Assembly: GCA_902583345.1 (NCBI GenBank)
Contig: CACHVT010000010.1
Coordinates: 1-37,253 of the forward strand
Reading direction: 5' to 3'
From: an uncultured Pelagibacteraceae bacterium
GTDB lineage: Bacteria; Pseudomonadota; Alphaproteobacteria; Pelagibacterales; Pelagibacteraceae
Length of the DNA: 37,253 bases
In this document: positions 355-9,835 of the stretch, one piece after another
Layout of the letters: every line of letters begins with the position of its first letter
Position numbering within the stretch: position 1 is the first letter of the stretch
Made by a program: the position numbers and the translations under genes
Notes under the pieces: generated by a model
Databases searched by the model: none
What the model saw: the letters and a program-made list of their open reading frames with translations, nothing else
Told to the model about the DNA's origin: nothing

Positions 355-774
355 ATGTCATTTTTAGAAAAAATAAGTAAACAATTGCCAGAATTTCAAG
401 GTTCAAATTGGTTGCTAAGAATACCTTTTTCAATTATTTTTATTCAACAAGGTTATACTAAATTACCTTTAGATCCATCTGAGGCAGCAAGTTATAACTT
501 ACCTATGACAGTATGGTTTTTCGTTGCTTGGGGAGAATTTTTTTCTGGTATTGGTTTATTGGTTGGAGGAATATTAAGGTTACCAGCAAAATGGCCTTGG
601 GTTGGAGACCTGATTACAAGATTTTCTGGAATTGTAATTGCAGGGATTATGACTGGTGTAATTTTAATTTCTGAACCTGAATCTTTATTTTATGTCTTAT
701 TTTATGACTCTTTTCATGTAATCTTATATTTTGGCGGTTTATTTTTTGCCTTAAGAGGAAATAGAACTAAATGA
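355..774 (+). CDS. DoxX-family membrane protein
   Basis: A 139-residue integral membrane protein with about four hydrophobic segments, near residues 22-35, 50-72, 88-107 and 111-133. The motif RIPFSIIFIQQGYTKL near the N-terminus and the GEFFSGIGLLVGG segment match the DoxX/SURF4-like family. DoxX proteins are linked to thiosulfate or redox metabolism in some bacteria, but most members have no defined reaction. It sits between cysE and cysK, and its stop overlaps the cysK start by 4 bp, so translation is probably coupled. The position suggests a role linked to sulfur or redox handling; this is inferred from context only. The family call is fairly safe and the function unknown. Confidence 0.75.
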   Translation: MSFLEKISKQLPEFQGSNWLLRIPFSIIFIQQGYTKLPLDPSEAASYNLPMTVWFFVAWGEFFSGIGLLVGGILRLPAKWPWVGDLITRFSGIVIAGIMTGVILISEPESLFYVLFYDSFHVILYFGGLFFALRGNRTK

Positions 775-1772
775 AAATTATTCAAAAAAGCTTTACTGAC
801 GGAATTGGGAACACTCCATTGATCAAACTTAATGCTGCATCACAAATTACTGGTTGTAATATTTATGGAAAAGCAGAATTTTTAAATCCTGGTGGATCAG
901 TTAAAGATAGAGCGGCATTAGCGCTTATTAAAGATGCTGAGGAGAAGAAATTAATTTCAAAAGGTGGAACGATTGTAGAGGGAACAGCGGGAAATACAGG
1001 AATTGGATTATGTCTTATTGGAAACTCAATTGGTTATAAAACTGTAATCGTAATGAACGATAACCAAACCCAGGAAAAAAAAGATATGTTAAAAAATATT
1101 GGGGCTGACTTAAAGTTGGTTCCACCAAAACCTTATAAAGATGACGGTAATTATGTAAAAGTAGCTGGAAGATTAGCAGATGAATTAAAAAGTACAAATA
1201 ATCACGGTGTTGTTTGGGCAAACCAATTTGATAATACAGCTAATGCCAAAGGTCATTATGAAACAACGGGACCTGAAATTTGGTCACAGACCGAAGGTAA
1301 AGTGGATGGTTTTGTATGTTCTTCGGGTACCGGAGGTACCATTGGAGGAGTTAGTAATTACTTAAAAGAAAAAAATAAGGATGTAAAAATATATTTATCT
1401 GATCCAGCTGGCTCATCATTATATAATTATATTGAAAACGGAGAATTAAAAGGCGAGGGAAATTCTATAACAGAAGGTATTGGTTCAAGCAGAATTACAG
1501 CAAATTTTGCAGAAGCTAAAATTGATGGAGCTTTTTCAATTAGTGATCAAGAGTCGCTACCTATTATTTATGATTTAATTCAAAATGAAGGCTTAAGTCT
1601 CGGAACTAGTTGTGGAGTTAATATTGCTGGAGCTGTTAAACTTGGTAAAAAACTTGGTCCAGGAAAAACTATCATTACAATACTTTGTGATAAATCTGAT
1701 AAATACAACTCTAAGCTGTTTAATAAAAAATTTTTAGAGGAAAAAGGCTTACCCTTTCCTACCTGGATCTAA
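771..1772 (+). CDS. cysK: Cysteine synthase (O-acetylserine sulfhydrylase, PLP-dependent)
   Basis: A 333-residue fold-type II PLP enzyme that would condense O-acetylserine with sulfide to give cysteine. Visible motifs are GNTPLIKL at 13-20, the PLP lysine K45 in NPGGSVKDRAA, the substrate loop EGTAGNTGIG at 70-79 (usual form TSGNTG, here AGNTG) and the phosphate-binding SSGTGGTIGG near 183-192. The length is normal for CysK/CysM. The ATG overlaps the preceding DoxX stop (ATGA), and a cysE fragment lies upstream, so the three genes look like one operon. SAR11 relatives are known to depend on reduced sulfur, so making cysteine from sulfide fits. Cystathionine beta-synthase is a weaker alternative. 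Confidence 0.9.
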   Translation: MKIIQKSFTDGIGNTPLIKLNAASQITGCNIYGKAEFLNPGGSVKDRAALALIKDAEEKKLISKGGTIVEGTAGNTGIGLCLIGNSIGYKTVIVMNDNQTQEKKDMLKNIGADLKLVPPKPYKDDGNYVKVAGRLADELKSTNNHGVVWANQFDNTANAKGHYETTGPEIWSQTEGKVDGFVCSSGTGGTIGGVSNYLKEKNKDVKIYLSDPAGSSLYNYIENGELKGEGNSITEGIGSSRITANFAEAKIDGAFSISDQESLPIIYDLIQNEGLSLGTSCGVNIAGAVKLGKKLGPGKTIITILCDKSDKYNSKLFNKKFLEEKGLPFPTWI

Positions 1773-1854
1773 AAACCACATACCTGCATTGTAATAAATT
1801 GTTTACTTAGAATAGCAATTCTTAAATATATTTTTGTTTTAACAAAGGAGTCAA

Positions 1855-2337
1855 ATGAAAAAATTTATATTAAATTTAATTTTTATTTTTTTCACCTCAT
1901 ATTCATTAGCTGAAACAACTTCAGGTAAATTCAACACAAGTGGCACTGGTGGTTGGTTAACGAATGTAATGAATGCTGGCAATGGAAACATGAGTGTAAC
2001 CTATGATGGACAAGTGGGATTAACAGATAAAAATCCGGATAGCATTTTTCATAAGTCAACTATGCACTGTATAGGTGGACTTACATTACAAGCAGGAAAA
2101 TTTGAGGATGAAACCGGTATGTGTACATTCTATCTATTTGATGGTGAAAAAGTATTCATGAATTATAAAGGTAAAGGCACTGGTGGCGTTGGTGGGTCTG
2201 GTACATTTGTAATTATTGGTGGAACTGGAAAATACGAGAAAATTACTGGTAAAGGTTTTTCAAGTAGACAAAACCTTAAAGGTAGATCTGGCGTTGCCTC
2301 TACAATTAATCAAATGAATGGAGAATACACTTACTAA
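1855..2337 (+). CDS. Secreted allene-oxide-cyclase / dirigent-like barrel protein
   Basis: A 160-residue protein with an N-terminal Sec signal peptide of about 19 residues, cleaved near SLA|ETT. The mature part is rich in Gly, Thr and Ser and predicted to be all beta. The stretch GGSGTFVIIGGTGKYEKITG at about 122-141 matches the recurring GTGKY-x-x-ATG signature of the dirigent / allene oxide cyclase-like barrel superfamily. Two Cys (CIGG and MCTF) could form a disulfide after export. A good Shine-Dalgarno (AAAGGAG, 4 nt before ATG) and an 82-bp gap after cysK suggest a new transcript starts here. It would be periplasmic; its ligand is unknown. It heads a run of eight small genes. Confidence 0.55.
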   Translation: MKKFILNLIFIFFTSYSLAETTSGKFNTSGTGGWLTNVMNAGNGNMSVTYDGQVGLTDKNPDSIFHKSTMHCIGGLTLQAGKFEDETGMCTFYLFDGEKVFMNYKGKGTGGVGGSGTFVIIGGTGKYEKITGKGFSSRQNLKGRSGVASTINQMNGEYTY

Positions 2338-2363
2338 TAATATAACAAAGGAAGGAAAATAAA

Positions 2364-2747
2364 ATGGACGCAAAAGAAAGAACTAAGATGGGATATGACC
2401 TTTTTAATAAAGGTGATATGGAAACTTTTTTTAAAGAGATGGTTGATGAAAATACTACTTGGACTTTTCCAGGTAAAGAAGGTGTGCATCCTTTGTCAGG
2501 TGTTCATAAAGGACCTCAAGCTGTTATGGCGGCAATGAGCAAGATACCTGCAACGTGGTCAAACTTTCACTTAACTCCAATGGATATGATAGCCGAAGGA
2601 AACAAAGTATTTGTAAGAGTTAAAGCGGCAGCTGACGGAATGGATACAATGTTTGGCCATTATTTTGAAATTGGCGACAATGGAAAAATGGTTACGATGA
2701 TGACATTTGATGACACTCTCAGCATGTTTAATGCAATGAAAAAATAA
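2364..2747 (+). CDS. SnoaL / NTF2-like small protein, methionine-rich
   Basis: A 127-residue cytoplasmic protein with the NTF2-like/SnoaL pattern: an N-terminal helix, then FNKGDMETFFKEMVDENTTW, a central loop with GVHKG, and C-terminal strands with FVRVKA and YFEIGDNGKM. Such folds bind small hydrophobic ligands or act as isomerases or hydrolases. No catalytic pair can be assigned with confidence. It has 15 Met in 127 residues, a high share and concentrated in the second half. It is preceded by an AAAGGAAGG ribosome site that recurs before the next gene. A second NTF2-like gene lies at 3989, so the operon carries two relatives of the fold. Confidence 0.6.
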   Translation: MDAKERTKMGYDLFNKGDMETFFKEMVDENTTWTFPGKEGVHPLSGVHKGPQAVMAAMSKIPATWSNFHLTPMDMIAEGNKVFVRVKAAADGMDTMFGHYFEIGDNGKMVTMMTFDDTLSMFNAMKK

Positions 2748-2767
2748 ATTTAATAAAGGAAGGAAAA

Positions 2768-3061
2768 ATGAAAGATTATTTAACAACACATATTTTTAAA
2801 TCAGTAGAAATGAAGAAAAAAATGCAAGAAACAATGGGGTCAATGACGCCTGAAGATATTGTAAAATCTACAACAGGCCCAAAGGCAGTTTGCCAATCAT
2901 CATTTGTTTCTCCTGGGGAGGATTTAATAATGTTTTGTCACTGGAAGGCTGAGAGTGAAGAAGCGATAAATGAACAATTAGGATCAATGAATGATTTTTA
3001 TGAACCACATAAACATCAAATAATTGATCAAATCATGGATTTTAACAAAATGAGATCATAA
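2768..3061 (+). CDS. Small methionine-rich protein of unknown function
   Basis: A 97-residue soluble protein without signal peptide or membrane segment. I do not recognise a named family. It has 9 Met, several near the N-terminus, and two Cys (AVCQ and MFCHW). The pattern of alternating strands (AVCQSSFVSPGEDLIMFCHW) followed by a helix (EEAINEQLGSM) would suit a half ferredoxin-like / dimeric alpha-beta barrel fold. The following gene, at 3085, has a similar layout with the shared pattern SP-x-x-x-x-IMF and may be a diverged paralog. It uses the same AAAGGAAGG ribosome site as the gene before it, 20 bp downstream of that gene's stop. Confidence 0.55.
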   Translation: MKDYLTTHIFKSVEMKKKMQETMGSMTPEDIVKSTTGPKAVCQSSFVSPGEDLIMFCHWKAESEEAINEQLGSMNDFYEPHKHQIIDQIMDFNKMRS

Positions 3062-3084
3062 ATTATTAAGAAAGGATAAATAAA

Positions 3085-3366
3085 ATGGAAAAAGAAATGT
3101 TGGTAGTTGGTATGTTAAAAGATGGAATGTTCGAGAAATTTATGGGTTTTATGCAATCGGATGCTGGTATGGAGGAAAGAAAAAAAATAGCCAATGTTCC
3201 TAAAACTATAGCCTCAGTCTCCCCAGACAAAAAAGTAATTATGTTTAAGATTTTTGTACATGATGAGGATGCTTTACATAAGTTTTTCGAAAGCAATGGA
3301 GTATCAAAACCAATTGTAGATGAAACAATGGATAGCTACACAATTTACAATTTATCAAAAGTTTAA
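3085..3366 (+). CDS. Small methionine-rich protein, possible paralog of the preceding gene
   Basis: A 93-residue soluble protein with 9 Met, mostly in the first 35 residues (EMLVVGMLKDGMFEKFMGFM). The order is strand, helix, then strand SVSPDKKVIMFKIFV, then helix EDALHKFFESNG, then strand DSYTIYNLSKV. That is a plausible half-barrel of the dimeric alpha-beta barrel type. It resembles the product at 2768 in layout and in the SP-x-x-x-x-IMF segment, but identity is low. A weak AAAGGA ribosome site precedes the ATG; the next gene starts 9 bp after its stop. No enzyme motif is visible. Confidence 0.55.
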   Translation: MEKEMLVVGMLKDGMFEKFMGFMQSDAGMEERKKIANVPKTIASVSPDKKVIMFKIFVHDEDALHKFFESNGVSKPIVDETMDSYTIYNLSKV

Positions 3367-3375
3367 GGAAAAAAA

Positions 3376-3699
3376 ATGGCAAAATTTTATTTAATTGGAA
3401 AAATTAGTGCAGAGTTGATGAAGAGAATGCAGAATGATCCATCTGCTGATAGATATGCTTCTACAAAAAAAGTGACGGAAGCAGCAGGCTTAAAAATGAT
3501 AAGCTATGAATGGGTAAGAGGAAGGTTTGATGTAATCTCTTGCGTTGAGGGTGAGTATGAGCAAGCTCTTGCTTTGAAGGTTGCTTTTAAAAACTCTGGT
3601 CTAATGGATGATTTAATGGTGCATGAAGTAATTGATTATAACAAAGCTTTCCAAAATGCTGCTAATGCAGCTAATACAGTTGTTAAGCCTGGAAAGTAA
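3376..3699 (+). CDS. GYD-domain-like protein
   Basis: A 107-residue soluble protein. The order of elements, FYLIGKISAELMKRM, then DRYASTKKVTEAAG, then SYEWVRGRFDVISCVE, then ALALKVAFKNSGL, fits the GYD domain, a ferredoxin-like alpha+beta domain of unknown function. The closest match in this window is the product at 20147, which shares the DPSADR/DPTSDR segment, VRGxFD/VRGxYD, ALKVAF/AIKLVV and a PGK/PGQ ending. The last codons overlap the next start by 1 bp (TAATG), so translation is coupled to the DUF1330 gene. GYD proteins often sit near small dimeric-barrel proteins; no reaction is established for them. Confidence 0.65.
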   Translation: MAKFYLIGKISAELMKRMQNDPSADRYASTKKVTEAAGLKMISYEWVRGRFDVISCVEGEYEQALALKVAFKNSGLMDDLMVHEVIDYNKAFQNAANAANTVVKPGK

Positions 3700-3986
3700 T
3701 GTCTGCTTACGTCATTGCTCAAATTAATTTAAAAAGTAAAGAGGGTTATAAAAAATATGTTGATAAGGTTCCAAGTACTATTAAAAATTTTGGAGGTGAA
3801 TATCTTGTGAGAGCAGGAGAATTTAAATCTTTAGAGGGTAAATGGGACTTTACAAGAAATGTAGTAATAAAATTTTCAAGCTATGAAAAAGCCTTGGAAT
3901 GGTACAACTCAGATGATTATAACCAAATCAAAAAATTAAGATTGGAAAATACTGACGGAAATCTAATAATAATAAAAGGAGTGTAA
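3699..3986 (+). CDS. DUF1330-family small protein
   Basis: A 95-residue soluble protein of the DUF1330 family, which adopts a dimeric ferredoxin-like (ABM-type) fold. Visible markers are the opening MSAYVIAQINLKSKEGYKKY, the GGEYLVRAGEFKSLEG segment and the C-terminal FSSYEKALEWYNSDDYNQIKKLR, where the WY-x-S-x-x-Y piece is characteristic. The start ATG shares one base with the preceding stop, and the next ATG lies 2 bp beyond its own stop, so it is embedded in an operon. The function of DUF1330 is not established; the family is often called an uncharacterised conserved protein. Confidence 0.75.
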   Translation: MSAYVIAQINLKSKEGYKKYVDKVPSTIKNFGGEYLVRAGEFKSLEGKWDFTRNVVIKFSSYEKALEWYNSDDYNQIKKLRLENTDGNLIIIKGV

Positions 3987-3988
3987 AT

Positions 3989-4309
3989 ATGTCTATAATA
4001 GAAAAAATGACAAAAATAATAAACGATGGGGACTCAGCTGGAGCTGAACATTTGATACATGATGATTATCAGTTTCCAATGCATTCATCTGGCAAAAAAT
4101 TGAGTAAAGCAGATGTAATAAAATGGGTAGGAATGAAGGATGTTCATAAAGAAAAAGTTAGAGTTCTTTTTGAAAATGATGAGGTTGGCTTCGAACATGC
4201 TTTTGTAAGCTTTAAAGATGGCAACAAAGAAGCTGTGATGACTTACTATAAGTTCAAAGATGGCAAAGTAGTTCATCAAGAGACAGGTGCAACTAAACTA
4301 CCTAAGTAA
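3989..4309 (+). CDS. SnoaL / NTF2-like small protein
   Basis: A 106-residue soluble protein with the NTF2-like layout: a first helix MSIIEKMTKIINDGDSAGAE, then LIHDDYQFPMHSSGKKLSKA, a VIKWVG helix, and the strand block VRVLFENDEVGFEHAFVSF, then AVMTYYKFKDGKVVHQETG. It resembles the polyketide-cyclase/SnoaL-type domains that bind small ligands. A conserved His (H24 in LIHDDY) and Asp could line a pocket, but no catalytic pair is assigned. It starts 2 bp after the DUF1330 stop. Together with the gene at 2364 it brackets the two Met-rich proteins, GYD and DUF1330. Confidence 0.6.
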   Translation: MSIIEKMTKIINDGDSAGAEHLIHDDYQFPMHSSGKKLSKADVIKWVGMKDVHKEKVRVLFENDEVGFEHAFVSFKDGNKEAVMTYYKFKDGKVVHQETGATKLPK

Positions 4310-4318
4310 ATTTAATTA

Positions 4319-4870
4319 ATGAAAAAAATAGTTTTAATTTTTTTTGTTTTATTTTTTTCGAACTTAGCTAATGCGTTAGAAGATCAAAAATTACAATTAG
4401 ATAAACTTTTTGAGGAATTAAAAACTAAGAAAGTATTATCTGAAGCAAAAGAGATTGAAGATAAAATTTGGAAACTCTGGAGTACCCATCCTTCAGAAAA
4501 AACACTAACAGATCTTTTAGCCAAAGGTTCGCAATACATGTACCAAAATCAACTTACTAGTGCTCATAATGTATTTTCAAAAGCGATAGAGCTCGATCCT
4601 AATTGGGCAGAAGGATGGAATAAAAGAGCTACAGTTTTGTACTTAATGGGTAATTATGATCTATCACAAAAAGATATTGACGAAGTTCTAAAACTTGAAA
4701 AAAGGCATTTTGGTGCTCTCTCAGGACAAGGACTTGTTCAAACCGCTCTTGAAAATTACCAAAAAGCAATTGATAGCTATATTGAAGCTCATAAAATCTA
4801 TCCTGCAATGAAAACACCTTTGATTATGATAGAAAAATTAAAGCTAATTATAAAAAAACAAACAATATAA
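4319..4870 (+). CDS. Periplasmic TPR-repeat protein
   Basis: A 183-residue protein with a 19-residue Sec signal peptide (cleavage near ANA|LED), so it should act in the periplasm. Residues about 60-165 form TPR-type helices: SQYMYQNQLTSAHNVFSKAI, ELDPNWAEGWNKRATVLYLM, then DLSQKDIDEVLKLEKRHFGA, then YQKAIDSYIEAHKIYP. TPR proteins are scaffolds for protein-protein contacts, so no reaction is expected. It begins 9 bp after the NTF2-like gene and ends the small-protein run that opened with another exported protein at 1855. A short hydrophobic-protein gene follows after 10 bp. Confidence 0.75.
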   Translation: MKKIVLIFFVLFFSNLANALEDQKLQLDKLFEELKTKKVLSEAKEIEDKIWKLWSTHPSEKTLTDLLAKGSQYMYQNQLTSAHNVFSKAIELDPNWAEGWNKRATVLYLMGNYDLSQKDIDEVLKLEKRHFGALSGQGLVQTALENYQKAIDSYIEAHKIYPAMKTPLIMIEKLKLIIKKQTI

Positions 4871-4880
4871 GTTATATAGA

Positions 4881-5123
4881 TTGTTACTGTTCAATAAAAT
4901 AGTGATTCCAAAAAAATATTCACAATTACTTTTTGTATTAATAGTTGGTTTTTTTACTAGCTTAGTAATGACACTGCTAATAACATTTATAAATACAGGA
5001 ATAGATGAATATTATATTAATAGATTTTTGAAAGCTTGGTCTGTTAGTTTGCCAATTGCAATAGCCACAGTTTTAGTGTTAAGTCCAATCGTAAAAAAAT
5101 TTGTAGATAAAATTACAAAATAA
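4881..5123 (+). CDS. DUF2798-like two-helix membrane protein
   Basis: An 80-residue membrane protein with two hydrophobic helices, about 17-37 and 50-69. The layout, with a first helix ending in FVLIVGFFTSLVMTLLITF, a short loop with the sequence RFLKAW, then SLPIAIATVLVLSPIVKKFV, matches DUF2798 proteins. The best start is TTG at 4881, 10 bp after the TPR stop; no ATG is available near the beginning. The function of DUF2798 is unknown. It is probably in the inner membrane and co-transcribed with its neighbours on both sides. Confidence 0.65.
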   Translation: MLLFNKIVIPKKYSQLLFVLIVGFFTSLVMTLLITFINTGIDEYYINRFLKAWSVSLPIAIATVLVLSPIVKKFVDKITK

Positions 5124-5139
5124 TATTAATGTTCACTCT

Positions 5140-5478
5140 GTGAATAGTTTTTCAGCCTATATAATATTAATTGTTGCAGTTATTCTTGGCACTACTGCAA
5201 ACGGATTTGCTAAAGGGGCACAAGGTTTTACAATCCTTATACCTAGTGTTTTAACCGCAATAGCAATTGTCAGCTGCATGTACGCATTGTCCCTTGTAAT
5301 GAAAACTATTCCAGTAGGAATAACTTACGCTTCTTTTGCTGGCCTATGCATTATAGCAACAACCTTTGTTGGAATATATAAATTTAATCAAATACCTGAT
5401 CTTTATGAAATAATTGGACTTGGATTAATTGTCGCTGGTGTCTTAATGGTAAATTTGTTAGGCAAAACTAACAACTAA
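5140..5478 (+). CDS. SMR/EmrE-like small membrane protein lacking the membrane glutamate
   Basis: A 112-residue, four-helix protein of the small multidrug resistance family. The start is GTG at 5140. It aligns with EmrE without gaps around the first helix: the GTT motif falls at residues 17-19 in both. The end also matches (LIVAGVLMVNLLGK against EmrE LICAGVLIINLLSR), as does IPVGITYASFAG against IPTGIAYAIWSG. At position 14, where proton- and substrate-binding Glu is essential in EmrE, this protein has Val. The usual Trp63 is Phe. A transport role like EmrE is therefore doubtful; it may have another substrate logic or a structural role. It lies between two other small membrane proteins. Confidence 0.7.
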   Translation: MNSFSAYIILIVAVILGTTANGFAKGAQGFTILIPSVLTAIAIVSCMYALSLVMKTIPVGITYASFAGLCIIATTFVGIYKFNQIPDLYEIIGLGLIVAGVLMVNLLGKTNN

Positions 5479-5546
5479 AAACCTTTAATTGATTGAAAAA
5501 TTTATTATAAGAACTATTTATAGTTTAGAATCATTTTAATCTATAT

Positions 5547-5789
5547 ATGAATCCGCTTTATAAAATAATTATAACCTACGAAATAGTTTTTTTACTATTT
5601 TGGAATATTTTGTATTTAGCTAATTCAGATATTGAAAACTGGTTTACGGAAAAATTTTTAACAGCTATCTTTGTATTTTTGTCAACAATGGCTCTTGGAG
5701 CAACATTAGTCTATATAATTTTTATCAGTTTAAAAATATCAGGAATTGCAAAAATTTTAAGAAGTATTAAAGATCCAAGGAAAAATTAA
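5547..5789 (+). CDS. Small two-helix membrane protein, unknown
   Basis: An 80-residue protein with two strongly hydrophobic stretches, about residues 8-25 and 38-64, and a basic C-terminus (RSIKDPRKN). I do not recognise a family. A 68-bp gap precedes it, the largest in this neighbourhood, which may hold a promoter for it and the following genes. The stop lies 4 bp before the SDR gene, so it may be co-transcribed with the photolyase-linked genes. Inner-membrane location is predicted; no function can be assigned. Confidence 0.5.
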   Translation: MNPLYKIIITYEIVFLLFWNILYLANSDIENWFTEKFLTAIFVFLSTMALGATLVYIIFISLKISGIAKILRSIKDPRKN

Positions 5790-6516: not shown

Positions 6517-6738
6517 ATGAAAAAGGAAATTGATGACGTCATTGGCATGGCCTGGTCTGACAAAATTTCTTTTGAAGAAATAAAAAAAAGAACAGGTCTT
6601 AAAGAAAAAGAAGTTATTTCCATAATGAGAAAAAAATTGAAAAAAAATAGTTATGTTCTTTGGCGGAAAAGAGTAAGGGGACGTCCATCAAAACATAGAA
6701 AAAAAACTAGAAGTAAAATGAATGATTATGAATTTTAA
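6517..6738 (+). CDS. TIGR03643 / DUF2805-family protein
   Basis: A 73-residue basic protein. The opening MKKEIDDVIGMAWSDKISFE, the helix-turn-helix-like stretch IKKRTGLKEKEVISIMRKKL and the ending YVLWRKRVRGRPSKHRKK are the signature of TIGR03643/DUF2805. The family is short and often found beside photolyase/cryptochrome genes. The helix pair and the strongly basic RGRPSKH tail, which resembles an AT-hook core, suggest nucleic-acid binding; this is inference. Its last 17 bp overlap the next gene in another frame, so the two are probably translated together. Confidence 0.8.
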   Translation: MKKEIDDVIGMAWSDKISFEEIKKRTGLKEKEVISIMRKKLKKNSYVLWRKRVRGRPSKHRKKTRSKMNDYEF

Positions 6739-7873
6739 ACCTTCACGAGAATTTGCTATTCATCAATTAAATACTTTTATAGAAAAAAATCTTATGGAAT
6801 ATTCAAGATTAAGAAATTTTGACTTTGGGCCTAACAAAAGATCAAATGTCTCATGCTTATCACCTTATGTAAGTCATGGAGTAATTAATGAAGTTGAAAT
6901 TATAAATAAATCATTAAAAAAATTTTCCTTTATTAAAACCGAAAAATTTATTCAAGAAGTTCTTTGGAGAGTATATTGGAAAGGTTGGATGGAGTTAAGA
7001 TCAAATGTTTGGACAGATTTTTTACAAGACTTAAAGGTAATAAAATCAAATTTTAAAAATAATCAAAATTATTCAGATGCTATAGAAGGTAAAACAAATA
7101 TTGATTGTTTTAATTTTTGGGTAGAAGAAATAAAAAAACACAATTATCTTCATAATCATGCAAGAATGTGGTTTGCTAGCATATGGATATTTACTTTGGA
7201 GCTTCCTTGGCAACTGGGTGCTGAGTTTTTTATGAAACATCTTCTTGATGGAGACAGCGCTTCAAATACTTTAGGGTGGAGATGGGTAGCTGGGATTCAG
7301 ACAAAAGGTAAACATTATTCTGCAAAAGAATGGAATATAAAAAAATTTACTAATAATAAGTTTGATAAAATAAAGTTAAATGAAAATTCTCTTCCACAAA
7401 CCGATGAAAGATTATATCGAATTATTTCGAAAGAATTCAAAGATGCTAAATTAGTTGAGAACAAAAATTTATTAGTTTTTGATAACAACCTATCGTTTGA
7501 AAATTCAGATTTTAAAAATAATAATTTTAAGAAAATTTATTTAATATCAAACGAAAACGAAACAAGGCAAATTATCCTGAGTGAAAATGTATTAAATTTT
7601 AAAAAATTTCTTTTAGACGACCAAGAAAAAAGATTAAACAAAAAATCTATAAAATGTGAAAGAATTAATATTGCTGATGTTAAAAATATTGAAGAAAACG
7701 TTTATGCTTTTTACCCTTCTGTGGGCGAAAATCTTGACTATATTAATATCAATAATCTAGAAAATATTGAATTTCTTTACCGAAAAATAGACAAATATTC
7801 ATGGAAATTTTGTAATAAAGGTTTTTTTAATTTTAAAAATTTTATACCAAAAATTATTTCAGAAGCAGTTTAA
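6722..7873 (+). CDS. FAD-binding photolyase/cryptochrome-like protein without the N-terminal domain
   Basis: A 383-residue protein whose first 210 residues are the FAD-binding helical domain of photolyases and cryptochromes. Markers include SCLSPYVSHGVIN at 44-56, EVLWRVYWKGWM at 79-90, HNHARMWFASIWI at 144-156 and DGDSASNTLGWRW at 176-188, which keeps the flavin-contacting Asp pair and Asn (N182). The usual N-terminal antenna-binding alpha/beta domain is missing. Instead about 150 residues follow the FAD domain (from about 230), with Rossmann-like segments such as LLVFDNNLSF and KIYLISN. The start could also be the second Met at 6728. It overlaps the TIGR03643 gene by 17 bp. Blue-light or DNA repair role is likely but untested. 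Confidence 0.78.
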   Translation: MIMNFKPSREFAIHQLNTFIEKNLMEYSRLRNFDFGPNKRSNVSCLSPYVSHGVINEVEIINKSLKKFSFIKTEKFIQEVLWRVYWKGWMELRSNVWTDFLQDLKVIKSNFKNNQNYSDAIEGKTNIDCFNFWVEEIKKHNYLHNHARMWFASIWIFTLELPWQLGAEFFMKHLLDGDSASNTLGWRWVAGIQTKGKHYSAKEWNIKKFTNNKFDKIKLNENSLPQTDERLYRIISKEFKDAKLVENKNLLVFDNNLSFENSDFKNNNFKKIYLISNENETRQIILSENVLNFKKFLLDDQEKRLNKKSIKCERINIADVKNIEENVYAFYPSVGENLDYININNLENIEFLYRKIDKYSWKFCNKGFFNFKNFIPKIISEAV

Positions 7874-7876
7874 TTT

Positions 7877-8002
7877 TCAAAATCTTGAGCACTTTTTTGA
7901 ACAATACTTAACCTTATCCCAATTTAATCTCCATTTTTTTCTCCAAACAAATGTCCTTTTACAAATTATACAAATTTTTGAGGGCAGGTTTTGTTTTTTC
8001 AC
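7877..8002 (-). CDS. DUF2256 zinc-ribbon-like miniprotein
   Basis: A 41-residue gene starting at GTG (8002). The product begins (M)KKQNLPSKICIICKRTFVW, continues RKKWRLNWDKVKYCSKKCSR and ends in F. The CxxC at 11-14 and C34-x3-C38 pair plus the WRKKW and W-x-x-VKYCS pieces are the signature of DUF2256, a family of about 40-50 residues with a treble-clef or zinc-ribbon-like cysteine set. The GTG overlaps the stop of the DCC gene (GTGA), so the two are translationally coupled. DUF2256 genes are commonly found beside photolyase/cryptochrome genes, which agrees with the neighbours here. Its stop faces the FAD-protein stop with 3 bp between. Confidence 0.85.
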   Translation of the reverse strand: MKKQNLPSKICIICKRTFVWRKKWRLNWDKVKYCSKKCSRF

Positions 8003-8349
8003 TTGAGTTGGCCTTTATTTTTTAAAAATAAAAAGTAAGCTACGATTTCATAAACATAATGAAATAAAATAAAAAAGGGTTTTATAGAAAATAATTTTGA
8101 CAGAAAATTATATTTAGGAATTTTTGACCAAATCACCACAAAGGCTTTTGCCCCACCTATCACTTCACCATTATCAATAACATGAAGTCTTCTTAATAAT
8201 TCTTTCTGGGATTTAGATGTAAGTTTAAGTGCCTCTTCATTATTTGTTATGTCAATCCACTCTAAATTACTATCAGATATTTTTTTATAATGATTAATTT
8301 CTAATCTACAAACATTACATGAATTATTAAAAAAAACTTTAATTCCCAT
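7999..8349 (-). CDS. DCC-family (DUF393) thiol-disulfide-like protein
   Basis: A 116-residue protein of the DCC/DUF393 family. The opening IKVFFNNSCNVCRLEINHYK carries the CxxC pair (C11, C14), although the usual D-G-x-C start is NNSC here. Further on, WIDITN and the block VIDNGEVIGGAKAFVVIWSKIP match the family pattern (G-x-x-x-G-x-x-A). The C-terminal third is hydrophobic and may bind the membrane. Proteins of the family are thought to be thioredoxin-like oxidoreductases. Its start overlaps the photolyase-related gene end by 11 bp, and its stop overlaps the DUF2256 start, so the three form one transcript. Confidence 0.8.
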   Translation of the reverse strand: MGIKVFFNNSCNVCRLEINHYKKISDSNLEWIDITNNEEALKLTSKSQKELLRRLHVIDNGEVIGGAKAFVVIWSKIPKYNFLSKLFSIKPFFILFHYVYEIVAYFLFLKNKGQLK

Positions 8350-9835
8350 ATGTGTTTTTTATTATAAATTTTTCAGCCTCGGATAAAATAATTTTTTTTC
8401 TTTCTTTTTTCATTTTGTCAAAAACTCTTACCATCATTGAAAGTCTAGGATTTTTTAAAAAAAAACCTCGATTTTTATTTATAAATCTCCAATACAAACC
8501 ATCCATTGTATTGCACCAGTCTCCTCTTTTAAAATCCATCATTTTCATAAAATAACTTGAACCACATATATAAGGCTTGGTTGCAAAAATTCCTCCATCA
8601 CTAAACAATCCCATTCCATAAACATTTGGTACCATCACCCAGTCTGATGAGTCTACAAACATTTCCATAAACCATTTGTAAACAGTTTTTGGTTTTAATT
8701 CACATAAGTTCATTATATTCGAAAGTATCATTAGTCTTTCAATATGATGAGACCAGCCATAATTAAGAGCATTTTTTATTGCATGGTCTAATGGTGGTAA
8801 TCCTGTTGTTCCATTATACCAACTATCTTTCATTCTTCTATTTTGGTTAAAGAAATTTTTTTCTACCATTTCTCGACTATAACTTTGATAAATTCCTCTC
8901 ATAAATTCACGCCATCCAATAACTTGTCTTATGTATCCTTCTAATGAATTTAATCTAATTTTTTTTTTTGTATGAAAATCTAAAATTTTTTTTACAACTA
9001 AATCAGGTGTAATTAAACCTAAGTTTAAGTATGGACTAAGAGCGCTGTGAAAAAGAATATTATTTTGTTGATTAACTGCATCTTCATAATCACCAAATAA
9101 ATTTGATTTTTCTTTTATAAAAAAATTTAATAACTTAATTGCTTCATCATGTTCTGTTGCAAACCAAAAGTTTTTTGTACCTCCAGGATGATTTTTAAAT
9201 AATTTTTCAATTATAGGTATTAAAGTTTGGGTATGTTTAGTTTTTTTTATATTAGGAAATTTTGGAATTGAAATATCATTTGGAAGTTTTTTTCTGTTAT
9301 CCTCATCGAAACTCCATTTGCCTCCTTCAGGAGTACCGTTTTTTTTCATTAAAATATTAAGTTTCTGTCTACTCTCTTTATAGAATGTAGCCATAAAAGG
9401 TTTTTTTGTTTTATATAAGTAAGTTTTAAATTCTTCCCTAGAATTTAAAAACATTGGAGATTTTACATAATTTAATTTTATTTTCGATTTATTTATAAAT
9501 GTCTTAACTTTTACTTCAAAGAATTTATCTTCAATTTCAAAACAAGTAATTTCTTTAATATTTTTTGATGAGATAACTCTTTTTAGTTTTTCTATATAAT
9601 TTTTTCTAAAGTCTGTTGAATCAATCCTTGAATAAATAATTTTATATTTATTTTTTTGTAAGTTTTCAGCATATGATCTCATTGAGGATAGATATAATAA
9701 AATTTTTAGCTTATGATGTTTCTCGTAGGAACATAACTCATAATCTTCAGACATGAAAACAATATGATCTTTTTTATACTGATCAATATTTTTTAAAGGG
9801 AACAATTGATTCCCAAGAATTAAGAGTAATTTCAT
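8339..9835 (-). CDS. Photolyase-related protein (COG3046 type) without the Fe-S cysteines
   Basis: A 498-residue protein of the prokaryotic cryptochrome / (6-4) photolyase class (COG3046). It begins with the Rossmann-type segment KLLLILGNQLFP and continues into the FAD domain: YIRQVIGWREFMRGIYQ, GWSHHIERLMILSN, SSDWVMVPNVYGMG, then FATKPYICGSSYFM and GLYWRFINKNRGFF. PhrB-type members carry four Cys for a 4Fe-4S cluster. At the matching places here, the first is Pro in GLPPLDH, the CxxC after the MMDF segment is replaced by KRGD, and only C441 in DWCNT lies near the fourth. The cluster is probably absent. The start ATG at 9835 has no strong ribosome site. It would repair UV photoproducts or sense light; which is open. 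Confidence 0.8.
   Translation of the reverse strand: MKLLLILGNQLFPLKNIDQYKKDHIVFMSEDYELCSYEKHHKLKILLYLSSMRSYAENLQKNKYKIIYSRIDSTDFRKNYIEKLKRVISSKNIKEITCFEIEDKFFEVKVKTFINKSKIKLNYVKSPMFLNSREEFKTYLYKTKKPFMATFYKESRQKLNILMKKNGTPEGGKWSFDEDNRKKLPNDISIPKFPNIKKTKHTQTLIPIIEKLFKNHPGGTKNFWFATEHDEAIKLLNFFIKEKSNLFGDYEDAVNQQNNILFHSALSPYLNLGLITPDLVVKKILDFHTKKKIRLNSLEGYIRQVIGWREFMRGIYQSYSREMVEKNFFNQNRRMKDSWYNGTTGLPPLDHAIKNALNYGWSHHIERLMILSNIMNLCELKPKTVYKWFMEMFVDSSDWVMVPNVYGMGLFSDGGIFATKPYICGSSYFMKMMDFKRGDWCNTMDGLYWRFINKNRGFFLKNPRLSMMVRVFDKMKKERKKIILSEAEKFIIKNTYGN

Follow-up and report, generated by a model that had tools for sequence, protein, structure and literature searches.

A variable array of small genes behind cysK in Pelagibacteraceae, possibly a modular operon of small-molecule pocket proteins

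In a stretch of 37,253 nucleotides from an uncultured bacterium of the family Pelagibacteraceae (SAR11, a very abundant group of marine bacteria; contig CACHVT010000010.1 of assembly GCA_902583345.1, a genome of 1.13 Mb in 47 contigs; the whole stretch is hereafter called the window), eight small open reading frames (ORFs), P1 to P8, follow the cysteine synthase gene cysK at positions 1855 to 4870. Comparison of this array with its relatives in other strains points to a polymorphic modular operon of small pocket proteins with a joint small-metabolite task, a reading to which we give about an even chance. The eight-gene observation itself, made in a first-pass annotation from the letters alone, is confirmed: in both the ORF list and the sequence the eight ORFs are tightly packed on the forward strand, with gaps that range, as had been claimed, from -1 to 26 bp (in order, 26, 20, 23, 9, -1, 2 and 9 bp). 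The functional interpretation offered with it, a selected unit, is partly supported, in that its families are also co-located at other loci and in other lineages and 16 array families are under purifying selection, but the gene set at the cysK site is variable.

The operon that we propose would start with a leader where cysK ends, behind which stand some 1 to 14 small genes, each coding for a single domain and belonging to a pool of about 20 families that the strains have in common. Comparison between strains suggests that inter-strain homologous recombination, together with deletion, changes the members and alleles present. To judge from gene neighbourhood, P4 and P7, often accompanied by a cupin, P3, P6, an exported protein of 125 amino acids (aa) and a small membrane protein, would make up a set that also occurs at other loci. 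The products may jointly convert, isomerise, oxygenate or bind small seawater metabolites, probably redox-active or aromatic ones, with the exported members acting in the periplasm and an adjoining SMR-type transporter disposing of the products; the variety from strain to strain would mirror differing metabolite exposure. A more specific form of the proposal, possible in our view but held only tentatively, is a combinatorial system, in which a core pair, P4 and P7, often with a cupin, would be joined by accessory pocket proteins that can replace one another, all behind a single regulated leader, swaps of single genes or gene pairs giving rise to strain-specific kits. SAR11 genomes are streamlined, yet they retain and exchange these poorly characterised small proteins (of the GYD-like, DUF1330, DUF3764 and SnoaL-like families and of families without a name); their recurrent clustering supplies guilt-by-association partners for several DUF families, and a joint function thereby becomes testable.

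Content and order of the array at the cysK site

Relatives were sampled in two ways. A scan of genome contigs with P2, a gene that 12 of the family's 147 genomes carry, every one in the window's genus, gave 115 loci, the best 80 of which were analysed; a second set was chosen by cysK in order to avoid selection bias for P2 (84 of the 147 family genomes matched, and the surroundings of 60 of these were examined). Arrays were counted only where cysK was at least 79% identical, which gives 106 loci, 97 of them complete to the right anchor; the unbiased set accounts for 29 loci, 22 complete, and thus for seven of the nine incomplete ones, several of which have other genes at the site. Loci L001-L012 were excluded as short, most of their genomes having been re-sampled with longer stretches as L093 onwards, and so were L089-L092, which have no cysK match; these four carry P2 at 65-67%, all with a GYD-like gene in the vicinity and three with a P3-like gene as well. 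The ORF clusters F44, F73, F76 and F97 were discarded, having been judged antisense to real genes.

Most relatives of the window genes share one site, after cysE-cysK and before DUF2798/SMR, with changing neighbours. The 97 complete loci display 58 distinct arrangements and 95 unique array sequences, identical sequences being found in two pairs (L040/L114 and L064/L104). The reading of the array as a fixed operon was rejected on this count; the gene-order comparison across SAR11 genomes that the first-pass annotation had called for yields no fixed order or gene set, and its argument from the genes being kept together fails at this site. Gene order is nevertheless non-random (concordance of 0.91, versus 0.63 when shuffled), with both orders seen for 31 of 116 family pairs.

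Among the 22 complete loci of the unbiased set, arrays hold 1 to 14 genes, and the most prevalent families are P7 (17 loci), P3 and the exported 125-aa family F15x (13 each), and P4 and mem26 (12 each), the rarer members being P6 (11), P2 (8), P1 (7), P5 (3) and P8 (2). The pool also includes two DUF3764-type and two cupin families (in each case one of the two falls below cut-off, for DUF3764 narrowly), along with a VOC protein, a cupredoxin, a DSBA-domain protein (labelled HCCA-isomerase-like), and several unmatched small proteins; pool families, defined on these same loci, occupy 840 of 856 gene slots. With start codons assigned mechanically, 58% of 879 pool genes have a strong Shine-Dalgarno motif in front of them, versus 10% of 1427 background genes. 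The motif is frequent (83-96%) before P2, P3, P4, P7, cupin A and DUF3764b, and scarce (0-13%) before DUF3764a, the cupredoxin, the HCCA-like protein, P8 and mem42. A scan of positions 1600-5600 for promoter and terminator patterns gave no more matches than shuffled sequence.

The shared leader and the same families at other loci

Most arrays stand behind a conserved leader, which lies directly 3' of the cysK stop codon, with a consensus of about CRCATAYC(A/T)G-N3-TGTAAY-N6-RTTACA. Its dyad, TGTAAY-N6-RTTACA, has 47 exact copies in 1.52 Mb of locus DNA, every one of them in the leader (28 unique leaders), and the exact form is present in 39 of 47 loci in which P2 comes first and in six of eight that start with the 125-aa family; in loci with P3 first it takes a near form, which matches at least 10 of 12 positions in 18 of 18. 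The copy in the window is degenerate, matching 10 of 12 positions by eye. Many leaders preserve the palindrome by paired change (TGTAAC...GTTACA, TGTAAT...ATTACA), mixed forms occurring in L014 and L095, and the dyad would be compatible both with a DNA operator and with a weak RNA hairpin. In most loci with mem26 first (L031, L110, L115 and others), another conserved block, like TTGACGCATGACG...TGTGTAACAGT, is observed between the divergent mem26 and the first array gene, and is perhaps an alternative promoter.

The longer leader pattern was detected in 57 of 397 family genomes, all of the window's genus (reversed control, 0), and the 30 places that were examined all lie at a cysK 3' end: 28 belong to full-length genes, one to a cysK apparently cut at a contig end (L167), and one to a 49-aa cysK fragment in genome G017. 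In the latter genome the cysK site (L120) is without an array, and the array sits at 662 kb, about 320 kb from cysK (also L153/L162), where the 49-aa 3' fragment of cysK is followed by leader-P4-P3-D88-F15x-mem26-P7-HCCA-like-DUF2798. This relocated copy, found via the leader motif, indicates that the array can move as a unit together with its leader.

The families also occur together elsewhere. The P4 profile matches 39 of the 147 family genomes, in seven of 14 genera, and the P3 profile 29 genomes in two genera; 16 of 40 P4 places were examined for neighbours. Five genomes of genus g4 carry, in this order, the 125-aa family, P6, P4, P3, mem26, a 97-aa protein and a GYD-like protein, and these five clusters probably represent one event. 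In genus g6 the order is mem26, a cupin-like protein, P4, cupin A, P7, DUF2798 and SMR. In L195, L200 and L202 (g3) and in L199 (g14), the gene next to P4 belongs to mem26, P7 or the 125-aa family; in L196 P4 meets a contig end, and L201 is an ordinary array. A class-wide search matched four of 337 genomes, two of which belong to one genus of another family (f31), with the gene orders P4-cupin A-D88-P7 and P4-cupin A-P7. This co-location in other lineages supports a joint function, the association being kept at other sites and in other lineages as in a functional gene neighbourhood.

Exchange, selection and competing explanations

The nearest relatives of the window genes are spread over about seven strains, most of which differ from the strains that are nearest in the flanks: L014 for P2 (94%) and P8 (86%), L048/L045 for P3 (94%), L035/L047 for P5 (94%), L037/L043 for P6 (83%), L109 for P4 (67%), L075 for P1 (77%), and for P7 L082 (87%), a strain that is also near in the flanks. 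The flanking cysE, SMR, f80 and SDR genes are closest to L019, L020, L082 or L093; the nearest cysK is that of L020, L019 and several others following at a distance of no more than one percent. The clade to which the P2 relationship would lead is rejected by the cysK tree (approximately unbiased (AU) test, p-AU 1.5e-6), and so, marginally, is the one implied by P3 (p-AU 0.046), a group that holds the long-branched row L058. Loci L068 and L070, which possess the same 12 genes, are 93-100% identical per 100-nt step outside P5-P6, and identity drops to 45-81% per step over these two genes, with lower identity (93-97%) at the edges of the exchanged block; the difference looks like a two-gene allele swap by homologous recombination. 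Partial genes (the 5' end of a VOC gene in L020, and, as short matches, the 5' end of a cupin gene in L038 and the 3' end of a cupredoxin gene in L081) resemble the scars of deletions. Supposed P3 remnants ahead of P2 were rejected as scars and read as over-extended P3 starts that cover the shared leader.

The L068/L070 block and the AU tests place the cysK site among those whose content is exchanged via homology, as reported for the replacement flexible genomic islands of aquatic bacteria, in which, according to the passages cited, the content of a fixed site is exchanged by homologous recombination via conserved flanks (Lopez-Perez 2014, PMC4033161). The islands treated in those passages are O-chain or flagellar glycosylation clusters that are replaced whole, whereas the array swaps genes or gene pairs of soluble pocket proteins internally. 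A second parallel is offered by integron gene cassettes (Bal32a and others), whose modules are likewise small and of a single domain, one of them sharing the NTF2-type fold. That the array is itself integron-like, with a dedicated recombinase and attachment sites, is nevertheless highly improbable: although its modules are small, share one orientation and stand behind a leader, and although the best match of P2 by sequence in the PDB is 1tuh (EGC068, which we take to be the integron-cassette protein Bal32a), spacers are very short (median 10 bp), and similarity at junctions is near background, both before starts (0.56 versus 0.52) and after stops (0.50 versus 0.49). The candidate of an attC-like repeat at every junction was rejected upon comparison of junction sequences, and the L068/L070 exchange spans two genes with edges such as homologous recombination leaves.

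Selection on the array is purifying, the median ratio of nonsynonymous to synonymous substitutions (dN/dS) being 0.04-0.12 in all 16 array families tested, compared to 0.10 for cysE, 0.08 for cysK and 0.05 for SMR. Presence/absence polymorphism and divergent alleles in near-identical strains could also be expected of a defence or immunity repertoire (anti-phage or toxin immunity) diversified by phages or competitors. Such a role is nonetheless quite improbable, given the metabolite-pocket folds and low dN/dS, PADLOC results on the eight window proteins that are limited to weak TPR hits and one marginal cyclase hit, and the lack of a PHROG match in the 10 proteins compared. A phage-borne origin was likewise rejected, on the PHROG result and on the finding that P5 and P4, the two proteins scanned, have no relatives in a viral contig collection.

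The array could also be an ordinary flexible genomic island, in which a permissive site behind cysK would accumulate loosely selected accessory genes, small by chance and without a joint function; this we regard as unlikely. In its favour, content differs in 274 of 318 locus pairs whose cysK genes are 95 to <100% identical (pairs that are not independent of each other), upstream content differs in 189 of the same pairs, contig ends included, and one complete genome (L111) has almost nothing at the cysK site. The DNA upstream of cysE shows a similar turnover of genes, and this control is the first of several observations that weigh against the modular operon. In 62 loci, the 4.3 kb before cysE vary about as much as the array (27 arrangements versus 33, with means of 4.8 and 9.5 genes), and in the unbiased set the number of families per 60 slots is equal, 19.6 in both; the pool, moreover, had been defined on the loci themselves. 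The dyad scores 8 or less where mem26, an FMN-dehydrogenase or P7 comes first, and genome-wide the bare dyad is not specific to the leader: 24 genomes contain 31 exact sites, 11 at the leader and 20 elsewhere (a reversed-control dyad has seven sites in the same genomes), and among the five non-cysK places examined one is the relocated array, and in L154-L157 the dyad lies inside a long ORF with no adjoining array gene. Comparison of junctions did not reveal a recombination-site repeat. Finally, homologs scattered singly, which the first-pass annotation had named as an argument against a unit, were encountered in part, P4 being without pool neighbours in four of the 16 places (L193, L194 and L203 in g3; L198 in g13).

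Upstream DNA thus turns over about as fast, which does not set the cysK site apart as an exceptional hotspot, and that reading was dropped. Matched for cysK identity, the two regions share content to a similar degree, amounting, for array and upstream DNA respectively, to 0.44 and 0.49 at 80-90%, 0.81 and 0.62 at 90-95%, 0.74 and 0.78 at 95-97%, 0.86 and 0.77 at 97-99%, and 0.96 and 0.76 above 99%; over all loci, 250 slots hold 24 families in the array versus 32 upstream. What speaks against an ordinary island is the character of the genes: 98% of array genes lie on one strand, with a median length of 107 aa, versus 51% and 230 aa upstream of cysE, their dN/dS is as low as that of cysE and cysK, and members of these families adjoin one another at further loci in other lineages.

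Window genes, methionine content and known systems

Table 1. Features of the window from cysK to the SMR-family gene
Feature	Position	Strand	Basis
cysK-like cysteine synthase (PALP), conserved left anchor of the array	771..1772	+	PF00291, E 5e-71; in loci placed after cysE
Leader, with conserved CACATACCTG at 1777-1786 and degenerate dyad at 1790-1807	1773..1854	+	leader comparison
P1, signal-peptide-like start, predicted eight-stranded dirigent/AOC-type barrel	1855..2337	+	no Pfam match; model pLDDT 81; Foldseek
P2, Met-rich, NTF2/SnoaL_2	2364..2747	+	PF12680, E 4e-11; best PDB sequence match 1tuh, E 8e-7
P3, Met-rich, weak SCO4226-like match, putative barrel fold	2768..3061	+	PF14026, sub-threshold
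P4, Met-rich, predicted alpha-beta barrel, recurrent core member	3085..3366	+	model pLDDT 92; structure matches
P5, GYD-like, swapped as a block with P6 in relatives	3376..3699	+	PF08734, E 1e-5, below cut-off; L068/L070
P6, DUF1330	3699..3986	+	PF07045, E 3e-31; PDB 2fiu, 3lo3
P7, second NTF2/SnoaL-like protein, in 91 of 97 complete arrays	3989..4309	+	PF12680, sub-threshold
P8, TPR, signal-peptide-like start, in 21 of 97 complete arrays	4319..4870	+	PF07719, E 2e-16
DUF2798 membrane protein, right anchor/tail	4881..5123	+	PF11391, E 4e-18, translation tested from 4914
SMR-family transporter, right anchor/tail	5140..5478	+	PF00893, E 2e-14

The fold labels of the first-pass annotation stood in part. 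P2 (SnoaL_2, 43.8 bits versus a Pfam cut-off of 27), P6 (DUF1330, 108 versus 23) and P8 (TPR) exceed their thresholds, while P5 as a GYD protein (25.7 bits versus 31.4) and P7 as SnoaL_2 (E 8e-4) match below them; P3 gives a single sub-threshold match to the SCO4226-like family (E 0.04), for which a relative reaches E 6e-4. P1 and P4 have no Pfam match, none of the eight proteins is above an NCBIfam cut-off, and sequence searches of the PDB with P1, P3, P5, P7, cupin A and D88 returned nothing credible. The N-termini of P1 and P8 were judged signal-peptide-like by eye. AlphaFold models were compared with the PDB structure library. That of P1 (predicted local distance difference test score, pLDDT, of 81, from 9 sequences) resembles dirigent/AOC-type barrels, nine chains falling at E <= 0.001 (TM about 0.4-0.5) with GePTS1, PloI4, AOC2 and the pyocyanin demethylase PodA as Foldseek neighbours, so that the dirigent/AOC-like barrel guessed earlier holds. 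The P4 model adopts a dimeric alpha-beta barrel fold with two chains at E <= 0.001; its best neighbours are SO0527 (E 5e-4) and an ABM-type protein (1e-3), followed by the polyketide cyclase FasU, LsrG and NIPSNAP. Many pool families have NTF2/SnoaL folds, ABM-like or dirigent/AOC barrels, cupin or VOC folds, all of which can hold or transform small organic compounds with no need of a bulky cofactor, and by analogy the pool proteins themselves may share such a pocket function.

The methionine (Met) counts had been given correctly: the translations contain 15 Met in 127 residues for P2, 9 in 97 for P3 and 9 in 93 for P4. Family means reach 9.8% in P2, 9.2% in P3 and 7.8% in P4, in comparison to a median of 1.9% and a 95th percentile of 4.2% for 45 background families. 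Several small proteins therefore do exceed the local background, as had been claimed, but the trait is uneven: six families (P2, P3, P4, both DUF3764-type families and the cupredoxin) lie at 6-10%, and P6 (0.6%), cupin A (0.4%) and the 125-aa protein (2.4%) are not enriched. The excess could reflect an oxidant sink, in which Met-rich proteins are oxidised and repaired, as the first-pass annotation had suggested, or a methionine/sulfur reserve beside cysE-cysK; in either form we consider this reading improbable, since high Met is not common to all members and since Met positions in P2 and P4 are more conserved than those of Leu, Ile and Val. Conservation is 0.76 for Met, 0.61 for Leu and 0.88 for Phe in P2 (6 sequences), and 0.75, 0.60 and 0.70 in P4 (15 sequences); in P3, Met positions are conserved like Leu (0.56 versus 0.58). 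The conserved residues of P2 and P4 would point to fixed roles, in structure, in the pocket or in metal binding, more than to a free sink. With regard to a sulfur reserve, cysK and cysE are not upregulated under sulfur limitation according to the passages cited from PMC5069961, which make no mention of the array genes.

Variable regions have been described in streamlined SAR11 genomes before. The hypervariable regions HVR1-4 correspond to SAR11_0042-0054, 523-568, 1162-1173 and 1214-1221 (Wilhelm 2007, PMC2217521, in the portion cited); the array, although likewise a variable region, lies elsewhere, and the main text of that paper contains neither cysK nor cysE nor 'cysteine synthase'. Locus L038 derives from the single-amplified genome AG-430-E20, in which islands with many hypothetical proteins are noted in the part of PMC7318151 cited here. 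Searches for SAR11 with DUF1330 and for Pelagibacter with 'GYD domain' found no paper, the only match to Pelagibacter and SnoaL concerns, in its visible part, a Vibrio, and the array is not described in the titles or abstract openings found for SAR11 cysteine synthase/island or DUF3764. These families probably make up an undescribed working set. Aromatic polyketide tailoring sets comprise SnoaL proteins, ABM/TcmI-type barrels and cupins, a mix of folds similar to that of the array; by contrast, no polyketide synthase was noticed among the genes listed around the array, no search having been aimed at one.

Some further features of the neighbourhood are of note. The SMR-family proteins at the array tail (that of the window, and pairs in L094, L036, L086, L109 and L111) display, by eye, a first membrane helix without an acidic residue, the helix that in EmrE carries Glu14, and their transport mechanism is probably non-standard. 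In the window, a DoxX-family gene (355-774), a singleton in ORF clustering, lies between cysE and cysK; in near relatives cysE otherwise directly precedes cysK wherever both are seen. After the array, positions 6517-9835 encode a DUF2805 protein, a photolyase-type FAD protein, a DCC1-like thiol oxidoreductase and a photolyase-related DPRP protein, relatives of which are located downstream of the array in some loci only.

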